64,000 nucleotides of DNA from Stackebrandtia nassauensis DSM 44728. GTDB lineage: Bacteria; Actinomycetota; Actinomycetes; Mycobacteriales; Micromonosporaceae. Each line of letters begins with the position of its first letter. Positions within the stretch are counted from its first letter, which is position 1. Of the stretch, positions 12,033 to 61,138 are shown piece after piece. The notes under the pieces are model-generated. The model searched no databases. It saw only the letters and a list, made by a program, of their open reading frames with translations, and was not told the DNA's origin. Both the position numbers and the translations under genes were made by a program. The stretch covers positions 3,224,001-3,288,000 of the forward strand of contig NC_013947.1 of NCBI RefSeq assembly GCF_000024545.1. The letters are read 5' to 3'.

Positions 12033-12585
12033 ACGCACCCGTCACCAAAGCCGCCCGGCACGCCCGCATCGCCGCGATCATCGACGCCAACCCGGTGCAG
12101 TCGCAGACGGCGCTGGCCGGGATGCTCGCCGACGAGGGCATCTCCGTCACCCAGGCCACGCTGTCGCGCGACCTGGAGGAACTGGGCGCGGTCAAGGTGC
12201 GCGGCACCGACGCCGCCCCCGCCACCTATGCGATCTTCCCCGAAGGGGACGGTCCACTGCGGAGCGCCACCCGGCCGCCCGAGCGACTGCTGCGACGACT
12301 GCGGGAACTGCTCACCGGCGCCGACCACTCCGGCAACCTCGCGGTCCTGCGAACCCCGCCCGGGGCCGCGCAGTTCCTCGCCAGCGTCATCGACCGCTCC
12401 GGCCTGGCCGACATCGTCGGCACCATCGCCGGGGACGACACGATCCTGGTCGTCGCCCGCGACGGCCTGTCGGGCGCCGAACTGGCCGAGCAACTGCTGT
12501 CCTGGGCGGGAAAAGACTCGGAGACCAACAACGCCAAAGCCAACCGGGCCACCACGCCACGGTTCGACACGGAAAAGGAAAACTC

Positions 12586-12589
<4 letters not shown>
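12029..12589 (+). CDS. argR: arginine repressor
   Basis: A 186-residue ArgR. The N-terminal winged helix reads [20 protein letters not shown], the family DNA-recognition helix. The C-terminal hexamerisation and arginine-binding half has [17 protein letters not shown] short charged tail follows, slightly longer than in Bacillus or E. coli. The GTG start overlaps the argF stop. Placement inside the operon it should control implies autoregulation through the ARG box at 6763-6800. Confidence 0.94.
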
Positions 12590-15203
<2,614 letters not shown>

Positions 15204-54125: not shown

Positions 54126-54263
54126 GAGCGTCAACCTATCCGGCCCTTACGACAACAGACAGTCACTTATGGGGGATTTGTACGTACCTACCAAATATGT
54201 CGTACTAGACATGAGGTCGATATGTCCCCGTGTCCCCGAATTGCCCCGAGGAGAACGACACAT

Positions 54264-55178
54264 ATGTCAACGGACACAACGCGTCCGGGCCGCAGACTGC
54301 GGCGCTGGTTTACCGGCAGAACCAAGCTGAGCCTGTTGGCCGTCACCGTGGTGGCGGCCGTCGCCGTTCCGGTCGGCTTCGCCGTGGCCGAGCCCGAAAC
54401 CCGAGCGGTGAACTTCGAGGTTCCGTTCGGCTGTGGCCAGTCGTGGGAAGGTCAGACCCGCACCAACCACAACCCGCAGAACTCGATCGACTTCAACCGC
54501 GCCGGCGACGACGGCGACGCCGTGGCGTCCAGCGCCGCCGGAACCGTGGCGACGGTCCGCGACCTGGGCGGTTCCAGCTACGGCAAGTACGTCGTGGTCA
54601 GCCACGGCTCCGGCTGGCAGACCCTGTACGCGCACCTGAAGTCGTTCTCGGTGAAGGTCGGCCAGAAGGTCAACACCGGCAGCAAGATCGGCACGGTCGG
54701 CTCCACCGGCGGCTCCACCGGACCCCACCTGCACTACGAGCAGAAGCTCAACGGCAGCGCCGTCAAGATCAAGTTCGACGGCAAGGGCGCCTACTACTGG
54801 GGCTCGCGCACCTACAAGAGCAGCAACAACTGCGGCGGCAACCCCTACAGCGCCGAGCAGGTGTGCGGCAGCGGCTACAAGCAGGTCGACTCCAAGGCCA
54901 TCAACGCCGGTGGCAAGCGACAGGGAACCGTGTACCTGCTGTACAACGCCAGCAAAGGCAACAACTGCGTGGCGACCATGAAGGCCGTCAGCCTCGGCAA
55001 GAAGACCGCCACCTCGGCGTTCCTGGAGGTCAAGGGCAGTAAGAAGGTCACCGACTCCGGTAACTTCGCCTACTACTCCGGCCCGGTGCGCAAGTACGCC
55101 AAGGGCACCTGCGTGAAGTGGGGCGGCTCCGTCGGCAGCACCACAGTCAACAGTGGTGATTGGAGTCACTGCGGCTAG
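54264..55178 (+). CDS. secreted M23-family (LytM-like) peptidase
   Basis: A 304-residue exported protein. The signal peptide is KLSLLAVTVVAAVAVPVGFA, ending AVAEP. The lysostaphin-type zinc domain (about 45-175) has NHNPQNSIDFNRAGDDGD (first His and Asp ligands), LYAHLKSFSV and the HxH ligand pair in STGPHLHYEQKL. A Lys-rich C-terminal domain of about 120 residues with five cysteines (VCGSGYK, NNCVATM, GTCVKW, HCG) follows and may bind cell wall. GAGGAGA precedes ATG 54264. A terminator ends the unit before the B12 riboswitch. Confidence 0.87.
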   Translation: MSTDTTRPGRRLRRWFTGRTKLSLLAVTVVAAVAVPVGFAVAEPETRAVNFEVPFGCGQSWEGQTRTNHNPQNSIDFNRAGDDGDAVASSAAGTVATVRDLGGSSYGKYVVVSHGSGWQTLYAHLKSFSVKVGQKVNTGSKIGTVGSTGGSTGPHLHYEQKLNGSAVKIKFDGKGAYYWGSRTYKSSNNCGGNPYSAEQVCGSGYKQVDSKAINAGGKRQGTVYLLYNASKGNNCVATMKAVSLGKKTATSAFLEVKGSKKVTDSGNFAYYSGPVRKYAKGTCVKWGGSVGSTTVNSGDWSHCG

Positions 55179-55274: not shown

Positions 55275-55398
55275 GTTCTGCCATGCTTCGAGCCATCCAG
55301 TCGGTGGGGGAAGTCCGGTCGAAGTCCGGCGCTGACCCGCAACGGTAGGCGCGCCATCAGTGGCGCGCGAGCCCGAGTACCCGTTGACTGGCCGCCCC
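55275..55398 (+). ncRNA. cobalamin riboswitch
   Basis: The conserved core reads GGGGGAAGTCCGG, then CGAAGTCCGGCGCTGACC and CGCAACGGT, followed by a GC-rich arm (GGCGCGCC/GGCGCGC) and the B12-box form GCGAGCCCGAGTACCCG. Downstream, CGGCCT (55500-55505) can pair with AGGCCG (55514-55519), a hairpin that takes up part of the GAAAGG ribosome site of the next gene. Translation of the operon should fall when cobalamin is plentiful. Confidence 0.9.
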
Positions 55399-55523
55399 CT
55401 TGTTCCTCCCGTCGTGGTCTACGGGATAGAACCGCAGGTGACGGACACCGACGACGATCTCAGCTCCCGGTACCCCGCCCGCGATTCACGCCCTTGGCCC
55501 GGCCTGTGCTGAAAGGCCGCTCC

Positions 55524-56732
55524 ATGCCCTCCAACCAACCCGCTGCCCGCTCGCGGCGCTACGCCGCCCGCGGCGCCGTCGCCCTGGTGGCCGCCGCGGT
55601 CACCGTCGCCTTCGCCGCCCCGGCCTCGGCCGCCGAACCCGACGGCGGCACCGCCGCCGGATGGCTCGCCGCCCAAGCCGACGGCCCGCACTTCGGCGAG
55701 CCGGGCGTCACCGCCGACGCCGTCATGGCGTTCGTGGCCGCCGACTCCGCGTCGGCCGCGACGAAGTCCGCGATCGAGTGGCTGGACGACCCGGCCGTGA
55801 TCGACCCCTATATCGGTACCGGCTCCGACCGCTCGGCGGCGAAGGTCGCCAAGATCCTGTTGGCCGCCAAGGCCGCTGGCGCGGAGTCCACGCTGGGTGG
55901 GGTCGACCTAGAGAAGGTGCTGCGCGACCTTGAAGGTGACGATGGCCTTTTCACCGGTGGCTTCACCAGCGTTCTGGGCCAGTCGCTCGCCATCTTGAGT
56001 TTGGACCGCACCTCTGAGGGCGTTTCGTCCAAGGCGGTGGAAGCGTTGGAGAAGGGACAGTGCGCCGACGGCTCGTTCAAGTTCACGTTCGGCAGCTGCG
56101 ATGACGCCAATGCCCCTGGCGATGTCGACGCAACCGGTTACGCGGCCTCGGCACTCTTGGCCGCCAGCCCTGGCAGCGCCTCCGACAACGCTCTGGACTG
56201 GCTGGAGAGCCAGCAGAAGGACAACGGCTCCTTCGTCGCCGGATACCCCGGCGCACCGGAGAACACCAACTCCACCGCGATGGCCGCGCAGGCGCTTGCG
56301 TCCGGTGGACGCGACGCGGCCGCCGAGAAAGCCCGCGGCTTCATCTCCAGCCTGCAAAACGGCTGCGACGCCGCCGAAGGCAACCGTGGCGGCGTCGCCT
56401 ACGACGCCTCCGGTTTCGACCCCGACAACGCGGTCATGGCCACCGTGCAAGCGGTCCCGGCGCTGACCGGCGAGGGACTCGTCGAACTGGACCCCTCCGA
56501 TGACAAGACCGACGTGCCCACCCTGGACTGCTCCAACGGCGGTGACGGAGACGGCGACGGCAATGGTGATGGAAACGGTGACGGTTCCGGCGACGGCGAC
56601 TCGGCCGGACAGCTGCCGGTCACCGGCAACGCGCTGACCCTGCCGATCGCGCTGGGTGGCGCGGCGGTGCTGGCCGGTGCCGTGCTCGTGTTCGTCTCGC
56701 GCCGTAACCGTGCCGGGAAGCAGTCGTCATGA
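55524..56732 (+). CDS. LPVTG-anchored alpha/alpha-toroid surface protein (intrinsic-factor alpha-domain-like)
   Basis: A 402-residue surface protein. The signal peptide ends near ASAAEP. The body (about 40-330) is a set of prenyltransferase/squalene-cyclase-type helical repeats: GTAAGWLAAQADG, KAVEALEKGQCADGSFKF and ALDWLESQQKDNGSFVAGYP, each with a Q..DGSF-like turn. The same fold makes the alpha-domain of animal cobalamin binders. A Gly/Asp/Asn linker leads to LPVTG (364-368), a hydrophobic helix and a basic tail, a standard sortase signal. It is the first gene behind the cobalamin riboswitch and overlaps the next by four bases. Corrinoid binding is inferred from fold and context, not from any known binding residue. 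Confidence 0.8.
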   Translation: MPSNQPAARSRRYAARGAVALVAAAVTVAFAAPASAAEPDGGTAAGWLAAQADGPHFGEPGVTADAVMAFVAADSASAATKSAIEWLDDPAVIDPYIGTGSDRSAAKVAKILLAAKAAGAESTLGGVDLEKVLRDLEGDDGLFTGGFTSVLGQSLAILSLDRTSEGVSSKAVEALEKGQCADGSFKFTFGSCDDANAPGDVDATGYAASALLAASPGSASDNALDWLESQQKDNGSFVAGYPGAPENTNSTAMAAQALASGGRDAAAEKARGFISSLQNGCDAAEGNRGGVAYDASGFDPDNAVMATVQAVPALTGEGLVELDPSDDKTDVPTLDCSNGGDGDGDGNGDGNGDGSGDGDSAGQLPVTGNALTLPIALGGAAVLAGAVLVFVSRRNRAGKQSS

Positions 56733-57595
56733 CCCGCATGCGTTTCGGCCTGCGGCACCTGGCCGCGATACTGGGCCTGACCGTCGCCGCGTTGCCACCG
56801 GTCGTCCTCGCCGACGCCCCGGCCGCGCACGCGGCGGTGTGCTCGCCGGGCTCGGGCGTCAGCGTCATCGTCGACTTCGGAGCACTTGGGTCGGTGAAGT
56901 CCGGTTGCGCGTCCGGGGCACCGTCCACCGGCCTGAAAGCCTTGAGCGGTGCGGGTTTCAGCTACAGCTACGTACCCGGCCAGACCGGGATGGTCTGCCG
57001 CATCAACAGCCTGCCCGACCCGTGCCCCTCGGGCGGCCCGCCGGTGGACAAGTACTGGTCCTACTGGGTCGCCGAGCGCGGCGGCACCTGGAAGTACAGC
57101 TCAAAGGGCGCCGGGAACCGCACCCCACCCGTGGGCAGTGTGGACGGTTGGGCCTTCGGTGCCGGGAAACCGCCCGCGACGGCGCCGCCCGCCAAGGGAT
57201 CCTCCTCGGGCGGTGGCGGCGACAGCGACGGCGGTGGCGACGGTTCCGGTGACGGCGGCGGCAGTGGCGGTGGCGGAAAGGACGACGGCGGCTCGAAGAA
57301 GTCCGGCAAGCCCGGCGACCCCTCGGCGTCCGACAAGAAGAAGGACCGCGACTCGCCCTCGGCCAGCGGCTCGGGCAGCCAGACCGCGCCCGGCGCCGAG
57401 GATCCGGCGGCGGACCCCGGTTCGGGCTCCGATGGCTACGACAACGCGTCCAACGTGGGCTCCCAGATGGGCACGGTCGGCGGCATCTTCGGTGCCGGGA
57501 TCGTGCTGGTGCTGCTGGCGGCACTGGGCTGGCGCACCTGGCAACGCCGACGCGGCGAAACGGAGCCGGTCGAAGCGGCGGAACCGTCCGAATGA
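56729..57595 (+). CDS. membrane-anchored DUF4430-like surface protein (transcobalamin beta-domain-like)
   Basis: A 288-residue exported protein. The signal peptide ends near AHAAV. Residues about 40-150 form a compact domain with VSVIVDFGALGSVKSGC, AGFSYSYVPGQTGMVCRI, KYWSYWVAERGGTWKYSSKG and VDGWAFG, the pattern of DUF4430/transcobalamin-like beta-domains, with four cysteines. A Gly/Ser/Asp/Lys linker of about 85 residues crosses the wall, and one helix (IFGAGIVLVLLAALGW) plus RTWQRRR anchors it in the membrane. Overlaps of four bases on both sides tie it to the toroid protein and the ECF permease. A hand-over role between wall and transporter is inference. Confidence 0.77.
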   Translation: MTRMRFGLRHLAAILGLTVAALPPVVLADAPAAHAAVCSPGSGVSVIVDFGALGSVKSGCASGAPSTGLKALSGAGFSYSYVPGQTGMVCRINSLPDPCPSGGPPVDKYWSYWVAERGGTWKYSSKGAGNRTPPVGSVDGWAFGAGKPPATAPPAKGSSSGGGGDSDGGGDGSGDGGGSGGGGKDDGGSKKSGKPGDPSASDKKKDRDSPSASGSGSQTAPGAEDPAADPGSGSDGYDNASNVGSQMGTVGGIFGAGIVLVLLAALGWRTWQRRRGETEPVEAAEPSE

Positions 57596-58698
57596 CGCGT
57601 GCCGGGCGGCTGCATCCGGTGGCGTGGTGGGTGTGGGCGGTGTGCCTGGCCACCGCCGCCAGCCGCGTCACCAACCCGTGGCTGCTGCTGATGATCATGG
57701 CGGTCGCCGGTTACGTGGTGACCGCCCGCCGCGGCGACGAACCCTGGTCGAACGCCTACCGGGTGTTCCTGATGATCGGGTTCATCGCCATCGGCATCCG
57801 GCTGGTGTTCCACATCCTGTTGGGCGGCGTGCAGGGCCCGACGGTGCTGTTCGAGCTGCCGTCGCTGACGCTTCCCGAATGGACGCAAGGGATCCGCATC
57901 GGTGGACCCGTCACCCTCGAAGGGGTGCTGTTCGCCGTGTACGACGGGCTGCGGTTGGCGACGCTGCTGGCCTGCGTCGGGGCCGCCAACGCGCTGGCCA
58001 GCCCTCGGCGGCTGGTGCGCAGCATGCCCGCCGCGCTGTACGAGGTGAGCGTGGCCGTGGTGGTGGCGCTGACCGTCGCGCCGCAGCTGGTCACCAGTAC
58101 CCAACGGGTCCACCGGGCCCGGCAGCTGCGCGGCGACACCTCGAAGCGGCCCGGGCACGTGCTGCGGCGCGTGGTGGCGCCGGTGCTGCACGACGCCCTG
58201 GACCGGTCGCTGTCGCTGGCGGCGGCGATGGACTGCCGGGGCTATGGACGCAAGACCGGCATCCCGAAACCGGCCCGGCGGGCCACGGCGGCGCTGCTGT
58301 TGCTGGGGCTGTTGGGTTTGTGCGTCGGGGCATACGGGCTGCTGGGCGCGCAGACCTCCCCGACGGCCGCGGCCGCGCTGCTGACCGGCGGCGCGGTGCT
58401 CGCGGGCGGCGGCATCGTGCTGGCGGCCCGGCGGGTGCCGCGCACCCGCTACCGTCCAGACCCGTTCGGGGTTCGGGAGTGGACGGTCGTGGCCAGCGGG
58501 CTGGCCGTGCTCGCGGCGATCATCGTTTCCGAGGTGCTGTCACCGGCCGGCCTCATCGCCGAGACCCAACCGGCTCAGCTGCCGCCGCTGCCGTTGCTGG
58601 CGGCACTCGGCATCCTCATCGGACTCGTCCCGGCGGCCGCGGCCCCGGCAACACGCACCGTCGTGACGGCGACGGTGAAACGCGAGGTGGCGGCATGA
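57592..58698 (+). CDS. ECF transporter T component
   Basis: A 368-residue membrane protein with about eight hydrophobic segments. The EcfT coupling helices carry the short A/Arg-Gly motifs in RVHRARQLRGD and AAAMDCRGYGRK, which contact the two ATPase subunits. The family core is extended by extra C-terminal helices (GLAVLAAIIVSEVLSPAG, PLLAALGILIGLVPAAA). It is translationally coupled on both sides. Substrate specificity comes from the S component and the riboswitch suggests a corrinoid. Confidence 0.85.
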   Translation: MTRAGRLHPVAWWVWAVCLATAASRVTNPWLLLMIMAVAGYVVTARRGDEPWSNAYRVFLMIGFIAIGIRLVFHILLGGVQGPTVLFELPSLTLPEWTQGIRIGGPVTLEGVLFAVYDGLRLATLLACVGAANALASPRRLVRSMPAALYEVSVAVVVALTVAPQLVTSTQRVHRARQLRGDTSKRPGHVLRRVVAPVLHDALDRSLSLAAAMDCRGYGRKTGIPKPARRATAALLLLGLLGLCVGAYGLLGAQTSPTAAAALLTGGAVLAGGGIVLAARRVPRTRYRPDPFGVREWTVVASGLAVLAAIIVSEVLSPAGLIAETQPAQLPPLPLLAALGILIGLVPAAAAPATRTVVTATVKREVAA

Positions 58699-60317
58699 TC
58701 GTTTTCGACGACGTCTCGGTTCGCTACCCCGAAGCCGACCACGACGTCCTCAGCCGGGTGAACCTCGAGATACCCGAGGGGGAGCTGTGCCTCGTCGTGG
58801 GCGCCACCGGTTCCGGGAAGTCCACACTGCTGTCGTGCGTCAACGGCCTGGTCCCGCACTTCACCGGCGGCGAGGTCACCGGACGCATCACCGTGGACGG
58901 ACGCTCCACGCGCGACAACCGGCCCGCCGAACTGGCCGACGTCGTCGGCTACGTCGGCCAGGATCCGTTGGCGGGCTTCGTCTCCGAGTACGTCGAGGAG
59001 GAGCTGGCCTACGCGATGGAGTCGCTGGGCACCTCCGACGAGGTGATGCGCAAACGAGTCACCGAGACCGTGGACCTGCTGGGGCTGGCCGACCTGCGCG
59101 ACCGTCCGCTGGGGAGCCTGTCGGCGGGACAGCGGCAGCGCGTCGCCATCGGGGCGGCCCTGACCGCGCAGCCACGGATCCTGGTCCTGGACGAACCGAC
59201 CTCGGCGCTGGACCCCGGCGCGGCCGAGGAGGTGCTGGCGGCCCTGCACCGGCTCGTCCACGACCTCGGCGTGACGGTGCTGCTGGCCGAGCACCGGCTG
59301 GAGCGGGTGGTGCAGTACGCCGACCGCGTCGTCCTGGTGCGCGGCGGCGAAACCGGTGTGACGGCGGGAGAACCGGGGGAGGTGCTGCGGTCGTCGCCGG
59401 TGGCGCCGCCGGTGGTGCGACTGGCCAAGGCCATGGCGTGGCCGACCGTCCCGGTGTCGGTGCGGCAGGCCCGGCGAGCGGCCACCGACCTGCGGCAGCG
59501 GCTCACGGACACGACCGAGCCCCCACCCCCGAATGCCCCCGCGAACGCCGACCGCCCCTTTGTCGAAGTGCGTCGCCTGACCGTCCGCTACCCCGGAGTC
59601 GAAGCGGTGCGCGGCATCGACCTCGACATCGCCGAAGGCGAACGCGTCGCCGTCATGGGCCGCAACGGTTCCGGCAAGTCGAGCCTGCTGTGGGCGATGC
59701 AGGGCACCGGACGGCGCGACGCCGGGACGGTACGCGTCGCGGGCCGCGACCCGAAGACGCTCGACCCCCGTGAACGACGCCAGCTCGCCGGGCTGGTGCC
59801 CGCCGAACCCACCGACCTGCTGTACGCCGAGACCGTCGCCGCCGAATGCGAACAGGCCGACCGCGAATCGGATGCGCCGCCCGGCCGCTGCCGCGACATC
59901 CTGTCCACACTCGTGTCCGATGTCGACCCCGCCACCCACCCCCGGGACCTGTCGGAAGGGCAGCGACTCGCGCTCGCGGTGGCCGTGTCCATGACCGCCG
60001 AACCCGCACTGCTGCTCATGGACGAACCCACCCGCGGCCTCGACTACCCCGCCAAAGCCGAACTGGCCACGATGCTGCACGCCCTGTCCGCCACCGGAAA
60101 GACCAGCCTCGTCACCACTCACGACGTCGAGTTCGCCGCCGAATACGCCACCCGCGTCATCGTGGTGTCCGACGGCGAGATCGTCGCCGACGGGCCCGCC
60201 CGCGACATCGTGACGTCCTCGGCCATCTTCGCCCCACAGGTGTCCAAAGTGCTGGCACCGGCCCCGTACCTGACGGTGTCCGAAGTGGTCCAGGCACTCG
60301 GGGAGGTACCGGCATGA
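58695..60317 (+). CDS. ECF transporter ATPase, two ABC domains fused
   Basis: A 540-residue protein containing both nucleotide-binding domains. The first has GATGSGKSTLLSCVNGLVPH, signature LSAGQRQRVAIG and Walker B ILVLDEPTSALD. The second has GRNGSGKSSLLWAMQG, a variant signature LSEGQRLALAVAV and LLMDEPTRGLD. A linker of about 50 residues with Pro-rich sequence (TTEPPPPNAPAN) joins them. In most ECF systems these are two proteins, EcfA and EcfA'. It is cytoplasmic and coupled to the T component by a four-base overlap. Confidence 0.92.
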   Translation: MIVFDDVSVRYPEADHDVLSRVNLEIPEGELCLVVGATGSGKSTLLSCVNGLVPHFTGGEVTGRITVDGRSTRDNRPAELADVVGYVGQDPLAGFVSEYVEEELAYAMESLGTSDEVMRKRVTETVDLLGLADLRDRPLGSLSAGQRQRVAIGAALTAQPRILVLDEPTSALDPGAAEEVLAALHRLVHDLGVTVLLAEHRLERVVQYADRVVLVRGGETGVTAGEPGEVLRSSPVAPPVVRLAKAMAWPTVPVSVRQARRAATDLRQRLTDTTEPPPPNAPANADRPFVEVRRLTVRYPGVEAVRGIDLDIAEGERVAVMGRNGSGKSSLLWAMQGTGRRDAGTVRVAGRDPKTLDPRERRQLAGLVPAEPTDLLYAETVAAECEQADRESDAPPGRCRDILSTLVSDVDPATHPRDLSEGQRLALAVAVSMTAEPALLLMDEPTRGLDYPAKAELATMLHALSATGKTSLVTTHDVEFAAEYATRVIVVSDGEIVADGPARDIVTSSAIFAPQVSKVLAPAPYLTVSEVVQALGEVPA

Positions 60318-61138
60318 CGACCCTGCGGCTGCGCTGGGGCACCGCCCTCACCCTGACCGTCGGCGGCCTGTTCGGCGTCGCCGCCGTCGGCTGGCCACTG
60401 CTGATCACCCCCTCCTCGCACCTGTCCGAGGGCCTCACCGGCCCGTGGCTGTTCGCCGGGCTGCTGCCGCTGGTCCTGGCCGCGATGCTGGTCCAGATAT
60501 CCGAAGGCGGCCTCGACGCCAAAGCGGTGGCCATGCTCGGCGTCCTGTCGGCGGTCATCGCCGCGGTGCGGCCGTTCGGCGCCGGAACCGCCGGGGTGGA
60601 GACGGTGTTCTTCCTGCTGCTCCTCGCCGGACGGGTCTACGGCCCCGGCTTCGGTTTCGTCCTCGGCAACACCGCGCTGTTCGCCTCGGCGCTGCTGACC
60701 GGCGGCGTCGGGCCGTGGCTGCCGTTCCAGATGCTCGGCGCGGCCTTCTTCGCCCTCGGGGCCGGGCTGCTGCCGCGCGCCCGCGGCTGGTGGGAACTCG
60801 TCATGCTGTCCGGATACGGCGCGGTCGCGAGCCTGGGCTTCGGCCTGATGCTGAACCTGTCGTTCTGGCCGTACGCGGTCTCCGACGGCTCACCGCTGTC
60901 CTATGAGGCCGGCGCCTCGGTCGCCGAGAACCTGTCCCGACTGGTCGCGTTCAACCTGGCCACCTCGCTGGGCTGGGACATCGGCCGGGCCATCACCACG
61001 ACCGTCCTCATCCTCACCTGCGGGCCGGTGCTGCTGCGGGTGTTCCGCCGCGCGGCTCGCAAAGCCCGCTGGCACAACGAGACCCGGCCGGTGCCGCGCG
61101 TGGCGGAACCGGCCGGGTCGACAGTCTCGCCGTCCTAG
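60314..61138 (+). CDS. ECF transporter S component (probably corrinoid-specific)
   Basis: A 274-residue membrane protein with six or seven hydrophobic segments. GPWLFAGLLPLVLAAMLVQI, GVLSAVIAAVRPFGAGTAGV and RVYGPGFGFVLGNTALFASA follow the pattern of S components close to the CbrT group, in which the AVRPFGAG and GPGFGF loops line the substrate pocket. As the last gene of the riboswitch operon it should define the imported vitamin. The stop codon TAG lies in CTAG, which is also the stop of typA on the other strand. Confidence 0.82.
   Translation: MTTLRLRWGTALTLTVGGLFGVAAVGWPLLITPSSHLSEGLTGPWLFAGLLPLVLAAMLVQISEGGLDAKAVAMLGVLSAVIAAVRPFGAGTAGVETVFFLLLLAGRVYGPGFGFVLGNTALFASALLTGGVGPWLPFQMLGAAFFALGAGLLPRARGWWELVMLSGYGAVASLGFGLMLNLSFWPYAVSDGSPLSYEAGASVAENLSRLVAFNLATSLGWDIGRAITTTVLILTCGPVLLRVFRRAARKARWHNETRPVPRVAEPAGSTVSPS

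Follow-up and report, generated by a model that had tools for sequence, protein, structure and literature searches.

A Cobalamin Riboswitch Operon of Stackebrandtia nassauensis Encoding a Putative Split Intrinsic Factor-Like Receptor and an ECF Importer

The genome of Stackebrandtia nassauensis DSM 44728 (a single contig, NC_013947.1, of 6,841,557 bases) contains a cobalamin riboswitch followed by five genes at positions 55,275 to 61,138 of the stretch analysed here (64,000 nucleotides, contig positions 3,224,001 to 3,288,000; hereafter the window). These elements probably form a B12-repressed corrinoid uptake operon, in which a dedicated energy-coupling factor (ECF) importer is combined with a split extracellular receptor. 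The genes encode an alpha/alpha-toroid protein (c1), a beta-grasp protein (c2), EcfT, a double ATPase (EcfAA) and an S component. The layout in the original prediction, a riboswitch and five genes with four-base overlaps, was confirmed: the riboswitch scored over the gathering threshold of RF00174 and an ATGA overlap was read from the sequence at all four gene junctions. Riboswitches of the RF00174 family permit expression when cobalamin is low, and scarcity of cobalamin would thus allow expression of the window operon. The c1 protein, which sortase would attach to the wall, and c2, held at the membrane through a flexible linker, would be the two halves of an intrinsic factor-like carrier. A corrinoid would be caught between them, or by each in turn, and passed on to the S component; turnover of S by the EcfT/EcfAA module would then bring the corrinoid into the cell. 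The analysis shows the order of the genes, their anchor signals and predicted folds, their co-inheritance, the link to riboswitches and the natural fusions; we infer the ligand, the closure of the two chains and the direction of the hand-over.

The linkage of these genes was studied in a nearest-relative set of 41 genomes, S. nassauensis included. Homologues of c2 were present in 20 of the 41, and 20 stretches were taken from the 19 other genomes. The c1 gene adjoined c2 in 19 of these stretches, and EcfT and EcfAA, with the S component unless the contig ended, followed c2 in 17. The S component stood beside EcfT/EcfAA in 16 of the 20; at two detached loci (L035 and L042) it was located elsewhere in the genome. 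Since the operon recurs in 17 of the 20 stretches from c2-bearing relatives, its chance assembly is a poor rival explanation. A cobalamin riboswitch was found no more than 400 bases upstream, or overlapping the 5′ end of the longest frame, for 21 of 26 pairs or operons (12 over the gathering score and nine below it at E ≤ 0.001 per genome); in one of the five cases without a riboswitch (G037) the contig begins inside c1. At L051 and L052 the open reading frame (ORF) of c1 continues for about 460 residues past the toroid and is followed by two c2 genes in a row; no same-strand riboswitch was found directly upstream of these loci.

The same arrangement extends to the family that NCBI names after locus SCO2322, whose profile matched in 88 of 197 genomes of the class (67 over the cut-off). 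In a sample of 20 loci (L137–L156) out of the 88 matching genomes, a complete ECF set was found beside the SCO2322-type gene in 17 and a same-strand upstream riboswitch in 18 (six over the gathering score, 12 below). DUF4430, in turn, was recognised by Pfam in 34 genomes, and 14 of the 18 searched as such for riboswitches had one on the same strand within about 3.5 kb upstream. As the genomes, of 1.4–10.7 Mb, contain at most 10 riboswitches each, the linkage to the operon in relatives is, judged by simple counts, far above chance. The co-occurrence search suggested with the original prediction thus showed that homologous pairs regularly accompany cobalamin riboswitches and ECF genes. Four RF00174 matches were found in the S. 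nassauensis genome, that of the window among them; marginal in score when taken alone, the window riboswitch is supported by its recurrence at the same place in relatives.

The c1 protein consists of a signal-peptide-like start, an all-helical domain, an LPVTG motif, a hydrophobic stretch and a basic tail, the last three being the features of an LPXTG sortase substrate. TIGR01167 was matched over its cut-off and PF00746 just under it (18.3 bits; cut-off 20). The predicted structure showed an alpha/alpha toroid fold like that of intrinsic factor and transcobalamin, the model aligning with the intrinsic factor toroid across 232 residues. The c1 sequence matched NF053823 (SCO2321) with an E-value of 2.6e-22, at 79.3 bits below the curated cut-off of 300. 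An independent link of c1 to the SCO2321 family was provided by the c1 of a DUF4430-type operon (L129), which matched NF053823 at E 3.1e-27. A c1 comparison at E 9.5e-64 was set aside, six of the seven A4 proteins being also rows of A2 and therefore not independent. Both c1 and c2 matched once in the S. nassauensis genome.

In the c2 protein, a start resembling a signal peptide precedes a domain of about 120 residues, which a linker rich in Gly and Ser joins to a single hydrophobic stretch at the C terminus; for c1 and c2 alike, signal peptides and membrane stretches were judged by hydropathy and by eye. The c2 model showed the fold of the intrinsic factor/transcobalamin beta-domain, its elements following one another in DSSP as E E H E E E E; strands 47–50 and 53–60, directly after helix 36–42, would fit the insert, judged by the order of the elements. 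Both chains, as modelled, match the two domains of intrinsic factor and transcobalamin. The lack of such a match would have spoken against the original prediction, as would regular occurrence of the pairs apart from B12 riboswitches or ECF genes, and neither was observed. The description of c2 in that prediction as DUF4430-like did not hold for the window protein in hidden Markov model (HMM) searches, in which no Pfam family matched at E ≤ 1, so that the PF14478 (DUF4430) cut-off was not reached; it stood by way of the relatives and the structure model. PF14478 matched two of the 34 c2 family members, that of L053 over the cut-off, and the c2 family profile could be aligned (E 1.9e-5, probability 77.7) with the DUF4430 domains of actinobacteria. 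For this comparison the DUF4430 alignment (A3) used 22 of 30 seeds, the other eight having stops in the added flank; in the locus maps, DUF4430 domain rows were used for position only, and their places agree with the Pfam matches. NF040672 (SCO2322) matched c2 at E 1.2e-5 over 40 residues (25.7 bits, cut-off 85). In phmmer searches of PDB neither window c1 nor window c2 gave a meaningful match, and the PDB matches of the c2 profile were all unrelated (TIM-barrel and antibody entries and one more), with 0.014 as the best E-value; the best match of the DUF4430 profile was haptocorrin (4kki, beta-domain region) at E 0.3. Because sequence-only searches with window c1 and c2 failed, the proposed link to intrinsic factor rests on structure prediction, on the PF14478 matches of two relatives and on one PF01122 match among 36 c1 proteins.

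Gene fusions unite precisely the partners that the split-receptor reading needs, and support their joint work. At L135 (G192) a single open frame of 1214 residues contains one c2 domain and two c1-like domains, and at L132 (1919–3871, minus strand) and L133 (1917–3953, minus strand) an S component and a c1 toroid share one chain, which has a hydrophobic stretch at its C terminus. In the window the intrinsic factor-like domains are not on one chain, being encoded by two ORFs with an ATGA overlap. At five loci (L034, L037, L038, L039 and L041) both c1 and c2 end right after their domains, with no anchor, each pair standing behind a riboswitch match; that of L034 itself heads an ECF operon. The genomes of the other four also hold an ECF-adjacent pair whose c1 has an LPTTG tail and whose c2 has a membrane stretch in three, the c2 frame ending without one in the genome of L039. 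The c2 of L035 is anchorless and stands alone, and L040, with an anchorless c1, was not counted as such a pair since its c2 is cut by the contig end. As a guess, the anchorless pairs could be a secreted, diffusible B12 catcher.

Both partners in the SCO2321/SCO2322 branch have their two parts in swapped order as compared with window c1 and c2. The permuted c1 was found in 10 of 10 cases at the 20 loci and the permuted c2 at all 20, as against 33 native c2 domains elsewhere; all 10 loci with a permuted c1 thus also have a permuted c2. Since a shifted register between the repeats could mimic permutation of c1, the c1 HMM (307 columns) was rotated in 12-column steps. The ten SCO2321-type proteins scored best at a rotation of 108–120, with a gain of 33–63 bits, and of six native controls four were best at 0 and two at 300 (gain below 2 bits); the alignment behind the model includes all six controls and, in part, one of the ten (L140). 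Half-profiles of c1 gave the swapped order in the same ten proteins. Two further candidates for permuted c1, L137 12882–14597 and L139 2899–4761, were dropped, since in each the half-hits overlap and the protein looks like a generic toroid. For c2, hhalign aligned 42 columns unrotated (score 78) and 112 columns after rotation by 80 (score 104.7, E 4.5e-18), nine of 18 sequences having passed the trimming rule; an HMM rotation scan of c2 gave no clear optimum. Because the native order of parts is common to DUF4430 and to c1 of DUF4430-type operons, the permutation looks derived. Native and permuted forms coexist in G201, at L134 and L137 respectively. Mapped on the ecfAA tree, permutation takes four changes and the starred branches force one, which is compatible with a single origin or with several; one row labelled native in that tree, L117 555–2192, has a very long branch and is an ABC protein unrelated to the others. 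The permutation would account for the partial NF053823 and NF040672 matches of window c1 and c2, and one possible effect of the joint permutation is a new placement of the C-terminal anchor with respect to the ligand site.

Table 1. Features of the operon, with positions in the window.
Feature	Position	Strand	Basis or remark
Cobalamin riboswitch (RF00174)	55285..55402	+	cmscan 31.6 bits, gathering score 31.5, E 3.2e-4
c1, secreted protein with alpha/alpha toroid and LPVTG sortase tail	55524..56732	+	alternative start TTG 55494
c1 toroid domain, modelled	55635..56513	+	predicted structure
LPVTG sorting motif of c1	56613..56627	+	sequence; TIGR01167 19.1 bits, cut-off 15.9
c2, secreted membrane-tethered beta-grasp protein	56729..57595	+	ORF; partial match to NF040672 (SCO2322)
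c2 intrinsic factor/transcobalamin beta-type domain, modelled	56825..57184	+	predicted structure
EcfT (CbiQ family) transmembrane component	57592..58698	+	PF02361 E 1.2e-11, over cut-off
EcfA-EcfA′ double ATPase (ecfAA)	58695..60317	+	PF00005, two stretches, E 1e-50; TIGR04520 E 1.4e-82, under cut-off
S component, substrate-binding membrane protein	60314..61138	+	PF12822 E 2.3e-5, under cut-off; operon position

Directly 5′ of the riboswitch, a protein of the M23 peptidase family (window 54222–55178; PF01551, E 1.6e-26) probably belongs to a separate unit.

Several findings weigh against the uptake reading or parts of it. The window riboswitch exceeded its gathering threshold by 0.1 bit only, and 21 of the 39 riboswitches of relatives (21 nearest and 18 SCO2322-type) scored under it. 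No riboswitch was found for G016, G018, G021 and G008 despite the presence of upstream sequence; the G008 genome is incomplete, and its c2 has no c1 beside it. In G169 the SCO2322-type gene lacks an adjacent riboswitch, and no homologue of S was found there. The window S component scored under the cut-offs of both PF12822 (24.9 bits, cut-off 30.7) and TIGR04518 (18.2, cut-off 60). The E-value given by Foldseek itself for the c2 model against transcobalamin was only 0.025, and PF01122 (Cobalamin_bind, a eukaryotic family) matched one of the 36 c1 family members at E 8.3e-4, a member whose identity was not shown in two later scans. Anchors vary: judged by eye, the c1 tails of 34 relatives comprised 14 LPXTG- or LAXTG-like, 12 with a membrane stretch only and eight with neither, and 21 of 33 c2 proteins had a C-terminal membrane stretch. 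The nearest folds and sequences of c1 are terpene cyclases and prenyltransferases, with GH76 and other sugar enzymes also near; by itself c1 is a generic toroid, closer to terpene cyclases than to intrinsic factor. These neighbours would suit an extracellular enzyme, terpene cyclase- or glycosidase-like, that shares the operon by chance and has no part in B12 capture, an explanation made very unlikely by the fusions of c1 to S and to c2, by the riboswitch in front and by the long alignment with the intrinsic factor toroid.

The absence of c1 from 10 of the 20 SCO2322-type loci weighs against the two-part clamp in its strict form, and in eight of those 10 genomes no match to the c1 profile was found anywhere. 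The toroid is therefore dispensable at such loci, where c2 and the ECF module must act alone. The split intrinsic factor proposed originally is supported in part, with the predicted folds of both chains, the co-occurrence and the fusions in its favour, and its strict two-part form is weakened. A serial relay, with separate binding of corrinoid by c1 and by c2 (or with c1 serving only as a spacer in the wall or for binding glycan) and with presentation to S by c2 alone, would accommodate the c1-less loci, and single beta-domains of human transcobalamin have been solved apo and with cyanocobalamin (titles of 5no0 and 5np4), so that such a domain can bind alone. The relay nevertheless seems unlikely in view of the regular adjacency of c1 and c2 in relatives, their fusion at L135 and their permutation in the same loci.

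Of the importer, EcfT matched PF02361 at 45.2 bits (cut-off 25) and EcfA contains two PF00005 stretches, so that EcfT and two ATPase domains are both present. An ECF system importing cobalt or another B12-related small molecule such as dimethylbenzimidazole, tied by the riboswitch merely to the need for B12, was considered as well: the Pfam name of the EcfT family is cobalt transport protein, and B12 riboswitches stand in front of certain nickel/cobalt transporter operons (PMC2667541). Such an importer is most unlikely here. The S component matched PF12822 and, weakly, the folate family, both under cut-off, and the families listed for it in the Pfam and NCBIfam scans included none of cobalt S components; a bare metal ion would, moreover, hardly call for two extracellular chains with intrinsic factor folds. 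Corrinoid uptake suits the host, which would fit a scavenger as judged from its gene content: in a test of a single enzyme no CobI/CbiL match over cut-off was found, and metE and a BtuFCD-like system (under NCBIfam cut-offs) both lie behind cobalamin riboswitches. Another strong cobalamin riboswitch of this genome (L054 6073–6273, 98.5 bits) has a target that was not identified from the ORF list.

The uptake reading may be extended, tentatively, to the whole family. Actinobacteria would possess a two-chain intrinsic factor whose halves are held apart, in the window by wall and membrane, and which would span the distance to the importer by closing on a corrinoid; certain relatives would release an anchorless "B12-phore" pair that docks on the anchored pair, and the SCO2321/SCO2322 lineage would have permuted both halves, re-routing the anchors with the binding interface kept. 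We regard this extension as possible but doubtful, because the wall anchor of c1 is not general.

Animal intrinsic factor, transcobalamin and haptocorrin combine a toroid with a beta-grasp beta-domain, and both folds are matched here by the models; they are single soluble chains taken up through receptors, whereas the present system has two differently anchored chains with putative corrinoid binding and an ECF operon. The pairing of c1 and c2 is not wholly undescribed. A transcobalamin-like beta-grasp clade of low-GC Gram-positives, often fused to a toroid and encoded in CbiO/CbiQ operons, was reported with a proposed role in B12 scavenging (Burroughs et al. 2007, PMC1796856). These SLBB proteins share with c1 and c2 the two domains, the extracellular location and the kind of operon, several having Gram-positive anchors and side-by-side paralogues; they differ in their occurrence (low-GC Gram-positives, planctomycetes and some archaea) and in the fusion of the toroid to the SLBB domain. 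In the accessible part of that paper no mention was found of an actinobacterial branch, separately anchored split chains, riboswitches, S–toroid fusions or circular permutation, and in that of its follow-up (PMC1949818) circular permutation is mentioned for the E1 UFD domain only. ECF-CbrT of Lactobacillus delbrueckii, shown biochemically to import B12, likewise consists of EcfT, two ATPases and S; its ECF module is shared with other S components and no toroid/beta-grasp pair was found in the portion of PMC5997447 seen, in contrast to the dedicated single-operon module described here. An "additional lipoprotein component of putative cobalamin ECF transporter" is listed for a lactobacillus in a proteomics table (PMC9963975).

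Closer to the window are the actinobacterial DUF4430 operons, found in the order DUF4430-ecfT-ecfAA-S-c1 in six of 18 DUF4430 stretches (L124, L128–L130, L132 and L133) and sharing the frequent upstream riboswitch; in them c1 is last, not first, and the beta-domain is recognised by Pfam. At two of these loci a large, apparently secreted PQQ-propeller and DUF5719 protein lies between the riboswitch and the DUF4430-ECF genes (L128 7303–9921, minus strand; L129 4573–7251, plus strand), and at L117 a DUF4430-like protein (12436–13137) follows a native c2-ecfT-ecfAA-S-c1 operon. The SCO2321 and SCO2322 NCBIfam families, named without a function, have the same gene positions, riboswitch and ECF genes, and differ as circular permutants of c1 and c2, the window proteins scoring under both cut-offs. 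Rodionov et al. reportedly predicted actinobacterial cobalamin ECF systems (CbrTUV) in 2009. In searches of one open-access library no paper was found on this actinobacterial branch, its split anchoring or the permutation.

The operon points to a possible way in which such bacteria catch B12 outside the cell, and SCO2321 and SCO2322, which NCBI names only by locus, gain a concrete proposed role. It also connects the B12 carriers of animals with a two-chain system of bacteria whose halves can be purified separately, so that the division of corrinoid capture is directly testable. Should the anchorless pairs prove to be true carriers, B12 would rank with iron and heme among the nutrients fetched by secreted bacterial carriers.
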